From Gemmatimonadota bacterium (GTDB lineage: Bacteria; Gemmatimonadota; Gemmatimonadetes; Longimicrobiales; Gaopeijiaceae), in the NCBI GenBank assembly GCA_022823145.1, contig JAJDXS010000029.1, forward strand, positions 124,001 to 188,000: a DNA stretch of 64,000 nt, written 5' to 3'. Positions 46,089-51,192 of this stretch are shown piece after piece. The position numbers were made by a program, and so were the translations under genes. Under the pieces are notes generated by a model that was not told the DNA's origin, made no database searches, and worked only from the letters and a program-made list of their open reading frames with translations. The stretch's first letter is position 1; every line of letters begins with the position of its first letter.

Positions 46089-46127
46089 AACCGTACCCGC
46101 TCCGCCCGGGAAGCGGAGCCCGTAGTT
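46089..46127 (+). promoter_or_regulatory. Leader hairpin resembling the S6:S18-binding RNA
   Basis: Outer pairs AAC/GTT and TAC/GTA, with CG bulged between them on the 5' side (part of an AACCGTAC stretch), enclose a CC/CC internal loop and a perfect 7-bp stem GCTCCGC/GCGGAGC with loop CCGGGAA. Bacterial rpsF leaders often hold an RNA that mimics the 16S site of the S6:S18 dimer, marked by a bulged CCG beside a hairpin. The match is by eye only, but position and gene fit autoregulation. Confidence 0.4.
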
Positions 46128-46154
46128 CACCGCGGTCCAAGGGAGTTCCCGCGA

Positions 46155-46853
46155 ATGAGAGAATACGAAATCGTCTATATCCTCGACTCGGTTCTGAGTC
46201 GGGAAGCCGTGGACGCCAAGCTCGATACCTTCCACGCCGCCCTGGGTGGCGAAGTCAACACCCTCGACCACTGGGGCGTGCGGCCGCTCGCCTACCCGAT
46301 CCGCAAGGCCGGCACCGGGTACTACGTCATCGCCCACGTGACCGCCGACCCGGTCGGCCTCCCGGAGTTCGAGCGCCTCCTCAAGCTCGACGAGGAGATG
46401 ATGCGCTATCTGATCGTGCTCAACGAGGGACAGCCCGCCTCGGGTGCCTCGGTCCTCGCCGAGCGGCCGCAGAAGCCGGCCGACGAGGATGCCGACTCGG
46501 AGACGCCGCAGCCGGAAGCCGAAGAAGAAGCCGCTTCGGAAGAGGACGGAGACGGCAACGGAGACGGCGGCGGCGACGCGACGGACGGGGAGTCGCCGGA
46601 GGAGGAGCAGCCTTCGGGCCCGCCGGTGTTCTCCGGTGCCCGCGGGCGTCGCCGGCGCCACGAGGGGCCGCCGATCGTTCTCCTCAACTACAAGGACGTC
46701 ACGACCCTATCCCGCTTCCTCACCGAGCAGGGCAAGATCCTGCCGAAGCGCACGACGAAGGTCACGGCCCGCTTCCAGAGGCAGCTTGGAGTCGCCGTGA
46801 AGCGCGCGCGGCACCTCGCGCTTCTCCCGTACATCAGGGATCACGAGGCCTGA
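46155..46853 (+). CDS. Fused ribosomal proteins S6 and S18
   Basis: One 232-residue frame encodes two small-subunit proteins. Residues 1 to about 96 are S6 ([35 protein letters not shown]). Residues about 97-160 are a Glu/Asp/Gly-rich linker. Residues about 161-232 are S18 ([20 protein letters not shown], then [31 protein letters not shown]). S6 and S18 form a dimer on the 30S platform, so the fusion joins natural partners. The S18 part has no zinc cysteines. AAGGGAG lies 9 bases before the ATG. An internal GTG at 46626 could in principle start S18 alone, but its nearest purine-rich site is about 19 bases away. ssb, often between the two genes, is absent; rplI follows as usual. Confidence 0.93.
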
Positions 46854-46884: not shown

Positions 46885-47340
46885 ATGAGACTGATTCTTC
46901 GTGAAAAAGTGGCCCATCTGGGACAGGCCGGTGACCTGGTCACGGTCAAGCCCGGGTACGCGCGCAATTTCCTGATCCCGAAGGGGCTGGCCTACAGGGC
47001 GACCGAGGCGAACGTCCGGCGAATCGAGGAGGAACGTCGCATCGGCGAGGAACGGGACCGCAGAGCGTATCTGGAAGCCAACCGTCGTGCGTCGCGCCTG
47101 GAGGGTGTGACCCTGACCTTCAAGGCCCGTGCGAGCCCCGAAGGAACCCTCTTCGGTTCCGTGGGCATGAAGGACATCTTCGACCGGCTGCAGGAATCGG
47201 AAATCGGCTTCGAACTCGACAAGCGGTCCGTCCTGCTCGACGAGCCGATCAAGTCGGTCGGCGAGCACATCGTCCCGCTGCGCCTGCACGCCGGGGTGGA
47301 GACGGAGGTGCAGGTCATCGTGGAGGCCGAAGAGGATTGA
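46885..47340 (+). CDS. rplI: 50S ribosomal protein L9
   Basis: L9, 151 residues: N-terminal 23S-binding domain MRLILREKVAHLGQAGDLV and VKPGYARNFLIPKGLA, a long connecting helix (about 45-75), and the C-terminal domain with GTLFGSVGMKDI. It follows the S6-S18 gene by 31 bases, matching the common rpsF-rpsR-rplI order. Confidence 0.96.
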   Translation: MRLILREKVAHLGQAGDLVTVKPGYARNFLIPKGLAYRATEANVRRIEEERRIGEERDRRAYLEANRRASRLEGVTLTFKARASPEGTLFGSVGMKDIFDRLQESEIGFELDKRSVLLDEPIKSVGEHIVPLRLHAGVETEVQVIVEAEED

Positions 47341-47353
47341 TCGCGACCCGAAC

Positions 47354-47728
47354 GTGAACGGATCGGCCGACTTCGAGATGCCGTCGGAGGTGCGCAAGGC
47401 GGCCGACTACGCCCTCGACAGAAAAGCCGTCGACGTCACGGTGCTGGATCTGCGTGATCTGTCGAGCGCGACCGACTTTTTCGTGATCGCGACCGGGCGT
47501 TCCGATATTCACGTTCGCGCGATCGCCGAACACATCCTCGACTCGGCCAGGGGGGACGGGAATCGCCCGGAGCACATCGAGGGACTGGACGAGGGTCGCT
47601 GGGTCCTGCTCGACTACATCGACCATGTCGTCCACATCTTTCATCCATCCGTCCGCGACTTCTACCGCCTGGAGGCGCTCTGGGGCGACGCGCGGTCGAT
47701 GCCGATCCCCGATTCGTCGGTCCCATGA
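47354..47728 (+). CDS. rsfS: Ribosomal silencing factor RsfS
   Basis: Binds L14 and blocks subunit joining under starvation. 124 residues, nucleotidyltransferase-like fold with AADYALDRKAVDVTVLDLRD, SSATDFFVIATGRSDIHVRAI, EGLDEGRWVLLDYIDHVVHI and HIFHPSVRDFYRLEALW. The start is GTG at 47354. The stop overlaps the smc ATG. Confidence 0.94.
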   Translation: MNGSADFEMPSEVRKAADYALDRKAVDVTVLDLRDLSSATDFFVIATGRSDIHVRAIAEHILDSARGDGNRPEHIEGLDEGRWVLLDYIDHVVHIFHPSVRDFYRLEALWGDARSMPIPDSSVP

Positions 47729-50700
47729 AGCTCAAGTCCCTCCGGCTCCACGGCTTCAAGTCCTTCGCGGATTCCACGCGCGTGGAATTCCACGAGGGCA
47801 TCACCGCGATCGTCGGCCCCAACGGGTGTGGCAAATCCAACATCGGCGATGCCGTCCGCTGGGTCCTGGGCGAGCAGCGGCCCACCGCGATCCGGGGAGC
47901 CAAGATGGAGGAGGTGATCTTCCAGGGCACGGCTTCGAGGCGTCCGGTGAACCGCGGCTCGGTCTCCATGGTCGTCAACAACGACGACGGAGCACTGGCC
48001 ATCCCGTTCGAGGAGGTGGAGATCGCCCGGACGGTGTATCGGGACGGTGGCAGCGACTACCGGCTCAATCGCTCCGCGTGTCGCCTGCGGGATATCGTCG
48101 ATCTGTGCCGCGACACCGGTCTGGGCGCCAACGCCTACTCGGTGATCGAGATCCGAATGATCGATGCGATCCTCTCGGAACGCACCGACGAACGCCGCTC
48201 CCTCTTCGAGGAAGCTGCCGGGATAGGGAAGTACAAGGAGCGGCGCCGCGCCGCCATTCGACGTCTTGAGACGGCGGAGGTCGATCTCCAGCGGGTCGAG
48301 GACGTCATCGCGGAGGTCCGGACCAAGGTCCGCTCGCTGGCGCGCCAGAAGGGAAAGGCGCAGCGCTATCGCGAGTTGCGGGAGCGGCGCCTGGCGGCCG
48401 AGGTCGCGGTCGCGCGGGTGGAACTCGACGAGCTCGATCTTCTCCTGTCGCGACTAAAGGCCGACCTGCAGGCGGATCGCGAGGAGTCGGCGGGGATGGC
48501 GGCGGCCCTGGCCGCTGCAGAGACCGGGCTCGAACGGACCCGGCTGGAGCAGCTGGAAGCCGAGAAGACACGGGTGGCCTGTGCCGAACGGCTGGACGCC
48601 GTCGGCTCCGAACTCTCTCGGATCGAGACGGAGGTAGCGGTTGCGGACGAGCGCCTGGCCAACGGCAGGCGCCGCCTTGCGCAGATCGCCGAGGAACGGC
48701 AGTCGGTGACCGCGTTGCGCGCCAGCGCGAAGGATGAATTGGCTGTGCTGGAAGATCTGAGGTCAGAATGTAAACTGTCCTTTACATCTTTACAAGTAGA
48801 CCTTACAGAACGAAAGCAGGCTGCCGACGAAGTCCGGACGAGGGTGGATGAAGCCAGGGCCGAGACACGCACGTTGGAGGAGGCGAGCAGGAGCGTTGCC
48901 GCACGCATGGCTCGCCTCGAGGGGGACCGCGACAGTGCACGGCTTCAGGCGGCCGAACTGGCGCGCAGGCTCGAACGTCTGGCGCGGGATGCCCGTCAGG
49001 GAGCAGGGGCGCTCAGGGAGGTCGAGTCGCAGCGCGACCTGTTCGCGGACCGGCGGACCGTCGCGACAAGAGCAGCCGAGCAGGCGACCCGAGATTTCGA
49101 GGCTTCCCGCCGGCGTCTGGCCATGGTGCGGGGGCGTCTCGCGTCCGCGCGGGCCGAGGAAATGCGGGCCGAGACTCAACTGTCCGCTCTTGAGGCGGAG
49201 CTTGCGGCACTGAAAGGGCTGGCCGGGTCGGACGAAGGGGTGGCGTCGATGGCAGCGGCGGCGCGCCAGGCGTTCCCCGAGGCGGTTCGAGGAGAGCTGT
49301 CGGATTTCGTGCGGGTCTCGGGCACCGCTGCTCGCGCCGTGGACGCGCTGCTCGGACCCTGCGGATCGGCGCTGGTGGTGCACGGACGGGACGATGTGGA
49401 GCGCATCACGCGCTGGTACGAAGGCAACGCAGCACGTCGGGCCGCCCTTCGGCTCCTGCCTCTCGATGCGGTGCCGGCGCCGCTGGGGCCGCTTCCCGCC
49501 GGCGTGACCGCGGCCGGCGACGGGGCGCCGTGGGTGAAGGCGTTCCTCGGGGGGGCGGATGCCGGGGACGGTGGCGGCTGGACGGATGTACGGGGCATCT
49601 TCCACCTCCTTCCCGACATCGGTGCGGAGGGTGGGCTGGAACGCCGGGGAAGGATCGAGTCCCTGTCCGCCGAGTGCGAGCTGGCGAGGGAGATGCTGGA
49701 TGAGGACAGAGAGGTTCGACTCGGCTGCGAAGAGGAACGAAAGGACGCCGAAGCCGAGGCGGACCGGGCCTCGGACCAGGTGCTGGCCGCCCGCGACGAA
49801 GCGAGAGCCGCCGAAGCCGAGGCGACGACGCAGAGTGAGCGACGGGAGCGGCTGTCCCGTCACCAGGAGGAAACCCAGCACCGGCTTGTCGAGACTCGCG
49901 CCTCCCGGGACAGGGCGCTCGGAAGGGAACGTCAGGCGGAGGACGAAAGGAGCCGGCTCCGGGACGAGGAAGTGTCGGTGGCGGACCGCGTGCAGGAGTC
50001 GCGCGATGTGCTCGCCGCGGTGGAGGCCGAGTGGGAACATGTGCGCGAGTCCGCCGCGGAGGTGACGATCCGCTCCGCGCGGCTCGAGAGCCGGTTGGAG
50101 AGACTCGACGGGCAGTTGGGAGATGCTCGCACGACGCTGGAAAGCACGGTGGCGCGTCTTGGCGACCTTGCTGGGGAGCAGGACGCGCTCACCAGGGAGT
50201 CCGTCCGGATTCGCGCCGCGCGCAACGAAGGAAGGGACGCGCTCGAGGGCCTGTTCTCGAAGCGTGACGAACTGAAGGCGGTACTGTCGGAACAGGATCG
50301 CGTTCTCGGCAACGCCTCGGCGGCGGTTGCCGAAGCGGAGCGCCGTCTGAGGGAGATGCGCGGCAGAGAGCGGGAGGCGGTTGGTCGCAGACACAGGCTT
50401 GAGATGACGGAGCAGGACATTCGCAATCGGGCGGCCAGGATCGGGGAGCGCCTGGAGGCGGAGTGGGGCCGGCCCCTGGAAGCGCTGTTCGACGAGGCAG
50501 ACAGGGTCGAGGGCGACACCGAGGCGCTCAGGGACGAACTTCAGGAGATTGTCCGGGCGCTGGAACGGATCGGACCGGTGAACATGCTTGCGGTCGAGGA
50601 GCACGCGGAGGAGAGCGCCCGCCTCGAATTTCTGGTCCAACAGCGCGAGGATCTGGCCACCGCGCGAGACGACCTCCGGTCCGCAATCCGTCGGATCAAC

Positions 50701-51192
50701 GCAACCGCCACCACACTCTTCATGAACACGTTCGAGGCGATCACGGAGAACTTCCGGTCGACCTTTCAGCATCTGTTCAGCGGCGGACGGGCCGATCTTC
50801 GACTCTCCAACCCGGAGGAACCGCTCGAATCCCCGGTCGAGATCCACGCGGCGCCGAAGGGCAAGCGTACGCAGAGGATCGACCTGCTTTCGGGCGGTGA
50901 GCGGGCGCTTACGGCGCTTTCGCTGCTCTTCGGGATCTACCTCGTCAAACCGAGCCCGTTCTGTGTTCTCGACGAAGTGGACGCGCCGCTCGACGACTCC
51001 AACATCGGGCGCTTCATCCGGTTGCTTCAGGGGTTCAAATCGCAGACCCAGTTCGTGGTGATCACCCACAATCCACGCACGATCGCCGCGGCCGACTGGA
51101 TCTATGGGGTGACGATGGAGGAGCCCGGGGTCTCATCGATCGTGGGCGTGCGCCTCGAGTCTCCGGCCGAGGCATCGGGAACGACCGCATGA
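47725..51192 (+). CDS. smc: Chromosome segregation ATPase SMC
   Basis: Core of the SMC-ScpAB condensin, 1155 residues. Walker A GPNGCGKSNIGDAVRWVLG near the N-terminus, two long coiled-coil arms (about 165-500 and 650-1000) around a hinge (about 505-630), and the C-terminal head with LLSGGERALTALSLLFGIY and Walker B VLDEVDAPLDD. Length is typical. Residues about 345-370 are encoded by a strikingly AT-rich island (48765-48812, codons such as TTA, GTA, ACA) that contains a palindrome shared with the ccmC upstream region. The start overlaps the rsfS stop and the stop overlaps the next gene. Confidence 0.97.
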   Translation: MKLKSLRLHGFKSFADSTRVEFHEGITAIVGPNGCGKSNIGDAVRWVLGEQRPTAIRGAKMEEVIFQGTASRRPVNRGSVSMVVNNDDGALAIPFEEVEIARTVYRDGGSDYRLNRSACRLRDIVDLCRDTGLGANAYSVIEIRMIDAILSERTDERRSLFEEAAGIGKYKERRRAAIRRLETAEVDLQRVEDVIAEVRTKVRSLARQKGKAQRYRELRERRLAAEVAVARVELDELDLLLSRLKADLQADREESAGMAAALAAAETGLERTRLEQLEAEKTRVACAERLDAVGSELSRIETEVAVADERLANGRRRLAQIAEERQSVTALRASAKDELAVLEDLRSECKLSFTSLQVDLTERKQAADEVRTRVDEARAETRTLEEASRSVAARMARLEGDRDSARLQAAELARRLERLARDARQGAGALREVESQRDLFADRRTVATRAAEQATRDFEASRRRLAMVRGRLASARAEEMRAETQLSALEAELAALKGLAGSDEGVASMAAAARQAFPEAVRGELSDFVRVSGTAARAVDALLGPCGSALVVHGRDDVERITRWYEGNAARRAALRLLPLDAVPAPLGPLPAGVTAAGDGAPWVKAFLGGADAGDGGGWTDVRGIFHLLPDIGAEGGLERRGRIESLSAECELAREMLDEDREVRLGCEEERKDAEAEADRASDQVLAARDEARAAEAEATTQSERRERLSRHQEETQHRLVETRASRDRALGRERQAEDERSRLRDEEVSVADRVQESRDVLAAVEAEWEHVRESAAEVTIRSARLESRLERLDGQLGDARTTLESTVARLGDLAGEQDALTRESVRIRAARNEGRDALEGLFSKRDELKAVLSEQDRVLGNASAAVAEAERRLREMRGREREAVGRRHRLEMTEQDIRNRAARIGERLEAEWGRPLEALFDEADRVEGDTEALRDELQEIVRALERIGPVNMLAVEEHAEESARLEFLVQQREDLATARDDLRSAIRRINATATTLFMNTFEAITENFRSTFQHLFSGGRADLRLSNPEEPLESPVEIHAAPKGKRTQRIDLLSGGERALTALSLLFGIYLVKPSPFCVLDEVDAPLDDSNIGRFIRLLQGFKSQTQFVVITHNPRTIAAADWIYGVTMEEPGVSSIVGVRLESPAEASGTTA
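48768..48787. repeat. Copy of the ATGTAAA-N6-TTTACAT palindrome inside smc
   Basis: Arms identical to those at 16759-16778, spacer CTGTCC; 17 of 20 bases match. Further TTTACA and CTTACA half-sites follow within 25 bases. The reading frame is preserved through the island. No other TGTAAA/TTTACA pair was found in the window. Confidence 0.55.

Follow-up and report, generated by a model that had tools for sequence, protein, structure and literature searches.

Ribosomal proteins bS6 and bS18 are encoded as a single polypeptide in the window (the whole 64,000-nucleotide stretch of DNA analyzed here, from a Gemmatimonadota bacterium). One open frame on the + strand, 46155-46853, runs from an ATG at 46155 to a TGA at 46851-46853 over 232 codons, with S6 in its first part and S18 in its last. 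We consider it probable that this is a genuine bS6-bS18 fusion: a 232-residue chain that is the sole source of both proteins, that arose once by loss of a stop codon, and that pairs its two domains within the chain, stays joined and probably represses its own synthesis. The fusion is a trait of one large Gemmatimonadota family, in which this novel way of arranging two well-known proteins has become fixed; word searches of the literature, whose coverage took in a minority of subscription papers, found no description of it.

Both domains exceed the curated cut-offs of Pfam and of NCBIfam. S6 is matched by PF01250 at residues 3-88 (77.1 bits against a cut-off of 27, E = 1.2e-21, profile positions 1-89 of 90) and by TIGR00166 at residues 1-89 (67.6 bits, cut-off 42.9), and S18 by PF01084 at residues 177-224 (72.6 bits, cut-off 21, E = 2.8e-20, profile positions 5-52 of 52) and by TIGR00165 at residues 174-229 (74.4 bits, cut-off 38.75). 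The initial annotation had described a full S6 and a full S18 in one uninterrupted frame of 232 residues, and these matches, with no stop between them, bear this out. Its '60-residue acidic linker' is a fair description, as about 66 of the 88 residues between the two Pfam matches (residues 90-155) form an acidic tether, the remainder being the basic N-terminal part of S18. The locus is laid out as follows.

46155-46421, + strand: S6 (bS6) domain, residues 1-89 (PF01250, TIGR00166, AlphaFold pLDDT)
46422-46619, + strand: acidic low-complexity tether, residues 90-155 (acidic tails of separate S6 proteins, pLDDT)
46620-46670, + strand: conserved basic junction motif of 17 residues, 156-172 (invariant residues in 49 aligned fusions)
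46626-46628, + strand: GTG, the sole in-frame start-like codon between the domains
46671-46850, + strand: S18 (bS18) domain, residues 173-232, without the CX2C...CX2H motif (PF01084, TIGR00165)
46851-46853, + strand: TGA stop of the fused gene
46885-47340, + strand: rplI (L9), the next gene downstream (Pfam L9 N and C domains)

The fused gene is followed by rplI, rsfS and smc, so that apart from the missing gene boundary the locus has the usual rpsF-rpsR-rplI order. Downstream of rplI, rsfS and smc occupy 47354-51192 and overlap, smc beginning at 47725 and rsfS running to 47728.

The initial proposal has held when relatives were searched for the same fusion and the genome for a stand-alone rpsR. 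A whole-genome search of the window's assembly (4.49 Mb in 83 contigs, 92.8% complete) found one S6 and one S18 match, both of them the fused frame, and no second copy of either. This genome (G000) has no rpoB match and is thus incomplete, so the absence of a second S18 leans on five single-contig relatives (G001, G021, G078, G081 and G084), each of which has one S18, in a frame shared with S6, and no stand-alone rpsR. Of the 121 genomes of the family, 116 have an S18 match and 115 an S6 match (five genomes lack a match to either, and G161 lacks one to S6), and the two lie in one stop-free frame in 109 of the 116. That count includes G112, where the S6 part is cut at a contig end and a second S6 piece lies elsewhere, and G258, where a contig end carries another S18 piece. 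Among the seven genomes without a shared frame, G311 and G313 have truly separate S6 and S18 within the family; G351 also has separate genes, in a different, A+T-rich layout, and this locus may be foreign to its bin. The locus is cut by contig ends in G161 and G222, a run of N falls in the linker of G173, and a frame change, real or an error, lies inside the linker of G284 (L125, also L103), with both domains still recognizable. In a scan of genome contigs, the fused relatives among the best 80 of 87 matches are labeled mostly Gemmatimonadetes, Gemmatimonadota, Gemmatimonadales or Longimicrobiales. One fused locus (L089, 2454-3104) sits in a record titled Gammaproteobacteria, a title that is probably wrong.

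With many members assembled from metagenomes, and with the frame change in G284 and the N run in G173, one could suspect an assembly or sequencing artefact in which a stop was lost or the frame misread. The independent family genomes checked for a stop or frameshift agree with the open frame in all but the seven cases above, G284 being the one with a frame change, and they comprise records of many isolates, the five single-contig genomes included. We regard an artefact as scarcely credible, the recurrence across independent genomes having in practice refuted it.

An open frame alone is weak evidence of fusion in this setting, because the DNA is G+C-rich and because S18 genes in long frames outside the family (159-312 codons) have S6 in another frame in 16 of 16 genomes among the matches listed. 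We therefore rejected frame length by itself as a sign of fusion. What sets the fusion apart from chance is the large part of the family in which S6 and S18 lie in a common frame. Two further families of this order have the genes separate in 16 of 16 genomes. When a profile of the fusion was searched over 298 genomes of the phylum, full-length stop-free matches came only from the one family (f1), among the matches listed; elsewhere in the phylum, again among the matches listed, the profile often spans both genes with exactly one in-frame stop, as in G229, G031, G033 and G035, which belong to the same order as the window. A search of 148 genomes of another phylum (146 with a match) gave no full-length stop-free match among those listed, and six genomes of other records have one short-frame S18 each. 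With one other phylum and these six genomes sampled, fusions may still occur elsewhere.

A different reading takes the open frame as incidental and has S18 translated on its own from an initiation site within the linker. We examined 79 distinct fusions, which were chosen for their shared frame, are related to one another and are in some cases cut at contig ends, and took as the usable stretch for an S18 start, by our own choice, codons 45 to 8 upstream of the NYKD core. A start codon does lie 9 codons before NYKD in 33 of the 79, and the GTG at 46626-46628 in the window lies 20 codons before the S18 core, a place where 6 of the 79 have a start codon. Shine-Dalgarno-like sites also occur elsewhere in the linker of some fusions: in 9 of the 79 they lie 3 codons before NYKD, and in 11 they lie more than 45 codons before it. 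Yet start-codon positions shift between relatives, 36 of the 79 have no start codon in the usable stretch, and only 4 have a Shine-Dalgarno-like site there. Because 8 of the 79 have no ATG, GTG or TTG anywhere between the domains, a separate start for S18 appears unlikely on sequence grounds, and as an account of the whole locus we hold it to be very improbable. For the GTG in the window, no Shine-Dalgarno-like site was found at usable spacing, the upstream purine run ending 18 bases away; the statement in the initial annotation that the window holds no stop, frameshift or well-spaced internal ribosome site stands. The openness of the linker says little either way: as the fusions were chosen for sharing a frame, an open linker is not a finding in itself, and while frame +2 contains stops in 61 of 79 linkers, frame +1 does so in only 16 and is thus also stop-free in 63.

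The evolution of the linker is consistent with its being translated. From S6 residue 89 to NYKD the 79 fusions span 59 to 201 residues (median 74). In 14 hand-chosen close pairs, the tether changes faster in amino acid sequence than the S6 and S18 parts, and in 13 of them synonymous change per site in the tether exceeds non-synonymous change by uncorrected counts, the exception being L063-L067 (0.075 synonymous versus 0.077 non-synonymous). Such a synonymous excess, together with fast amino acid change, fits a translated, loosely constrained tether. The longest tether, in L100 / L131 (G081), spans about 200 residues between S6 residue 89 and NYKD and is alanine- and glycine-rich rather than mainly acidic.

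An AlphaFold model of the fused chain, built on 49 aligned fusions and with pLDDT given per ten-residue block, consists of two confident domains and a low-confidence linker. The pLDDT is 92-98 for residues 1-90, 85 for residues 91-100, 45-65 across the tether and junction (residues 101-170) and 82-94 for residues 171-220, then falls to 75 and 36 at the chain end. With a pTM of 0.67, the placement of the domains relative to each other is not readable from the model. The S6 part matches solved S6 chains, the best with a target-normalized TM-score of 0.88 and an rmsd of 1.3, and none of the 60 chains listed among 116 PDB matches covers both S6 and S18 domains.

Whether the chain stays whole is the point on which the most serious rival to an uncut fusion turns. 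The fused gene could encode a precursor that a protease cuts, in the acidic tether or at the junction, to give ordinary separate S6 and S18. The junction (consensus PPxFSGxRGRRRR) is strongly conserved beside a freely varying tether, with residues 156, 161, 163, 164, 168, 171 and 172 invariant in the 49 aligned fusions, and the consensus is absent from two unfused sister sequences, so that it could be a cleavage site; it may, however, simply be the arginine-rich, rRNA-binding N-terminal part of S18. Processing of ribosomal proteins has precedent elsewhere, L27 reportedly being processed by Prp in Firmicutes. The distribution of RimK, the S6-glutamate ligase, bears on the same question. RimK acts on the S6 C-terminus, according to the available part of PMC7343187, and a RimK family match above cut-off was found in 6 of 15 fused genomes (G084, G145, G207, G157, G101 and G078) and in 0 of 10 separate ones. 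Its presence in fused genomes is odd, as S6 in an uncut chain has no free C-terminus, and would make sense if cutting restored one. Against this, three tested members of the window's genus (G000, G001 and G021) have no RimK match above cut-off. We judge cutting to be unlikely, and prefer a chain that remains intact. The idea that the fusion had made RimK needless was rejected on the same counts of fused and separate genomes.

The fused S18 differs from its separate counterparts in a second respect. The CX2C...CX2H motif is present in 0 of 72 distinct fused S18 sequences and in 19 of 19 distinct separate Gemmatimonadota S18 sequences (20 chosen loci, one a duplicate), which have CX2C before the core and CX2H or CX2C after it; the fused sequences have neither of these halves. 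In the portion of PMC11791143 available, the CX2CXnCX2H of bacterial bS18 is described as binding zinc, and bS18m and bS6m of the human mitoribosome as jointly holding a [2Fe-2S] cluster. As far as that source describes it, the mitochondrial pair resembles the present case in that S6 and S18 are linked to each other, in that instance through a metal cluster; unlike both the zinc-type bS18 and the bS18m-bS6m pair, the fused S18 has no such motif and the link is a peptide. The tether may have taken over the stabilizing role of the lost metal site.

To place the fusion in an evolutionary context, we compared trees from three data sets. In a tree of S6, S18 and L9 (111 tips, the distinct sequences among the 148 loci that were kept and contained each of the three markers), a split holding all fused sequences, with L103 included as fused, has an ultrafast bootstrap of 100. 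The corresponding fused-clade split has 84 in an rpoB tree of 26 tips and 100 in a combined-data tree of 23 tips, drawn from those 26 genomes. The rpoB tree covers 26 of 30 genomes (G000, G024 and G309 had no match, and G313 only a fragment), with frames picked by similarity, the longest frame in some loci not being rpoB. A value of 67 on the fused clade in one tree is a product of re-rooting, the split itself having 100 in that tree; several inner nodes of the clade are weak. The unfused G311 adjoins the fused clade in the trees, and so does G313 in the S6+S18+L9 tree. In both of these sisters S6 ends in TAG and the ATG of S18 follows three bases on, in frame. Given that the fused sequences form one clade and that their neighbors are often one stop apart, a single stop-codon loss suffices, and the fusion likely originated in this way between adjacent, in-frame rpsF and rpsR genes. 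The loss would have occurred once, near the base of the one Gemmatimonadota family. The listed tails of 20 separate Gemmatimonadota S6 proteins are acidic, and the tether is thus best read as the old C-terminal tail of S6, which would have been in place to become the tether. Two separate S6 proteins (L104 and L107) end in acidic tails that, at 143 and 100 residues, are much longer than the others listed.

Upstream of the fused gene lies a candidate regulatory leader, noticed on visual inspection and afterwards tested by counting base pairs. Its elements, with window coordinates assigned by hand from locus L001, are as follows.

46095-46157, + strand: structured 5' leader of the fused gene, ending at the ATG (alignment of 35 leaders)
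46096-46098 with Shine-Dalgarno bases 46141-46143, + strand: leader helix H1
46099-46105 with 46113-46119, + strand: leader hairpin H2
46120-46123 with 46132-46135, + strand: third leader helix

The leader is kept in fused and separate loci alike, a 5' CCC or CCU pairing with the GGG or AGG of the Shine-Dalgarno sequence around a conserved hairpin. The starting pattern was present in 87 distinct leaders, whereas 27 loci (8 of them fused) lacked it or were too short. From the 87, 35 with short hairpins were picked by eye for alignment (28 fused and 7 separate), and in these the helices form pairs in 87.9 to 96.1% of cells. In 22 cells both sides have changed, against 5.4 in shuffled alignments, none of 500 of which reached as high; the number of pairs showing such change (5 versus 3.4 in shuffles) is not exceptional, 66 of 500 shuffles doing as well. 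Slid versions of the alignment pair far less. Pair 4-59 is C-G in 28, U-A in 4 and U-G in 3 of the 35 leaders, and pair 1-62 fails in 16 of them. Folding without guidance reproduces the two main stems but misses the third helix. At Rfam gathering scores no leader family matched in the window or in 19 loci that included other phyla, which suggests that the Rfam library may lack this leader family. The accessible part of PMC4647458 describes repression of translation by the S6:S18 complex at the E. coli rpsF leader. As far as the available portions of PMC4647458 and PMC7247131 describe it, the published rpsF leader is similar in having a stem that holds the Shine-Dalgarno sequence, with a conserved hairpin and cytosines, directly upstream of rpsF; in contrast, the leaders of the fused clade and of its two unfused sisters carry one further short helix, which includes the conserved cytosines. 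By the predicted binding to this leader, the fused chain probably also represses its own mRNA.

In our preferred reading, that of an intact fusion, the chain is much like ordinary separate bS6 and bS18 in its domains, both near full length and above the Pfam and NCBIfam cut-offs, and differs in being one covalent chain with an acidic tether, in which neither the N-terminus of S18 nor the C-terminus of S6 is free. The two domains would most likely fold separately and then pair within the chain, the tether fixing a 1:1 stoichiometry and raising the local concentration of each partner. Separate S6 and S18 first assemble into a heterodimer, which then joins the complex of rRNA and S15, in the account available from PMC4647458; the fused chain would enter the 30S platform as a unit where that dimer would join S15-bound 16S rRNA. 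Once in the ribosome, S6 and S18 would stay linked, uncut, by a disordered and mobile acidic loop. Ubiquitin-ribosomal protein fusions of eukaryotes, as outlined in the literature available, are comparable in that a ribosomal protein is encoded within a fusion; here, instead of ubiquitin, the partner is a second ribosomal protein, one that contacts the first within the ribosome. The eukaryotic fusions are split. A more far-reaching possibility, which we offer tentatively and as rather doubtful, is that the uncut chain gives these bacteria a 30S platform with one protein fewer, that the tether replaces stabilization by the zinc site so that the ribosome is less zinc-dependent, and that a single-chain repressor acts on the leader.

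S6 and S18 are a textbook pair, known for dimerizing before they enter the 30S subunit, and a lineage in which they are joined is a natural experiment on whether dimerization limits assembly. The same lineage bears on how ribosomal protein stoichiometry is set and on what the metal site of S18 does. Its neighbors, with the two genes in frame and one stop apart, provide a clear before-and-after for the fusion.
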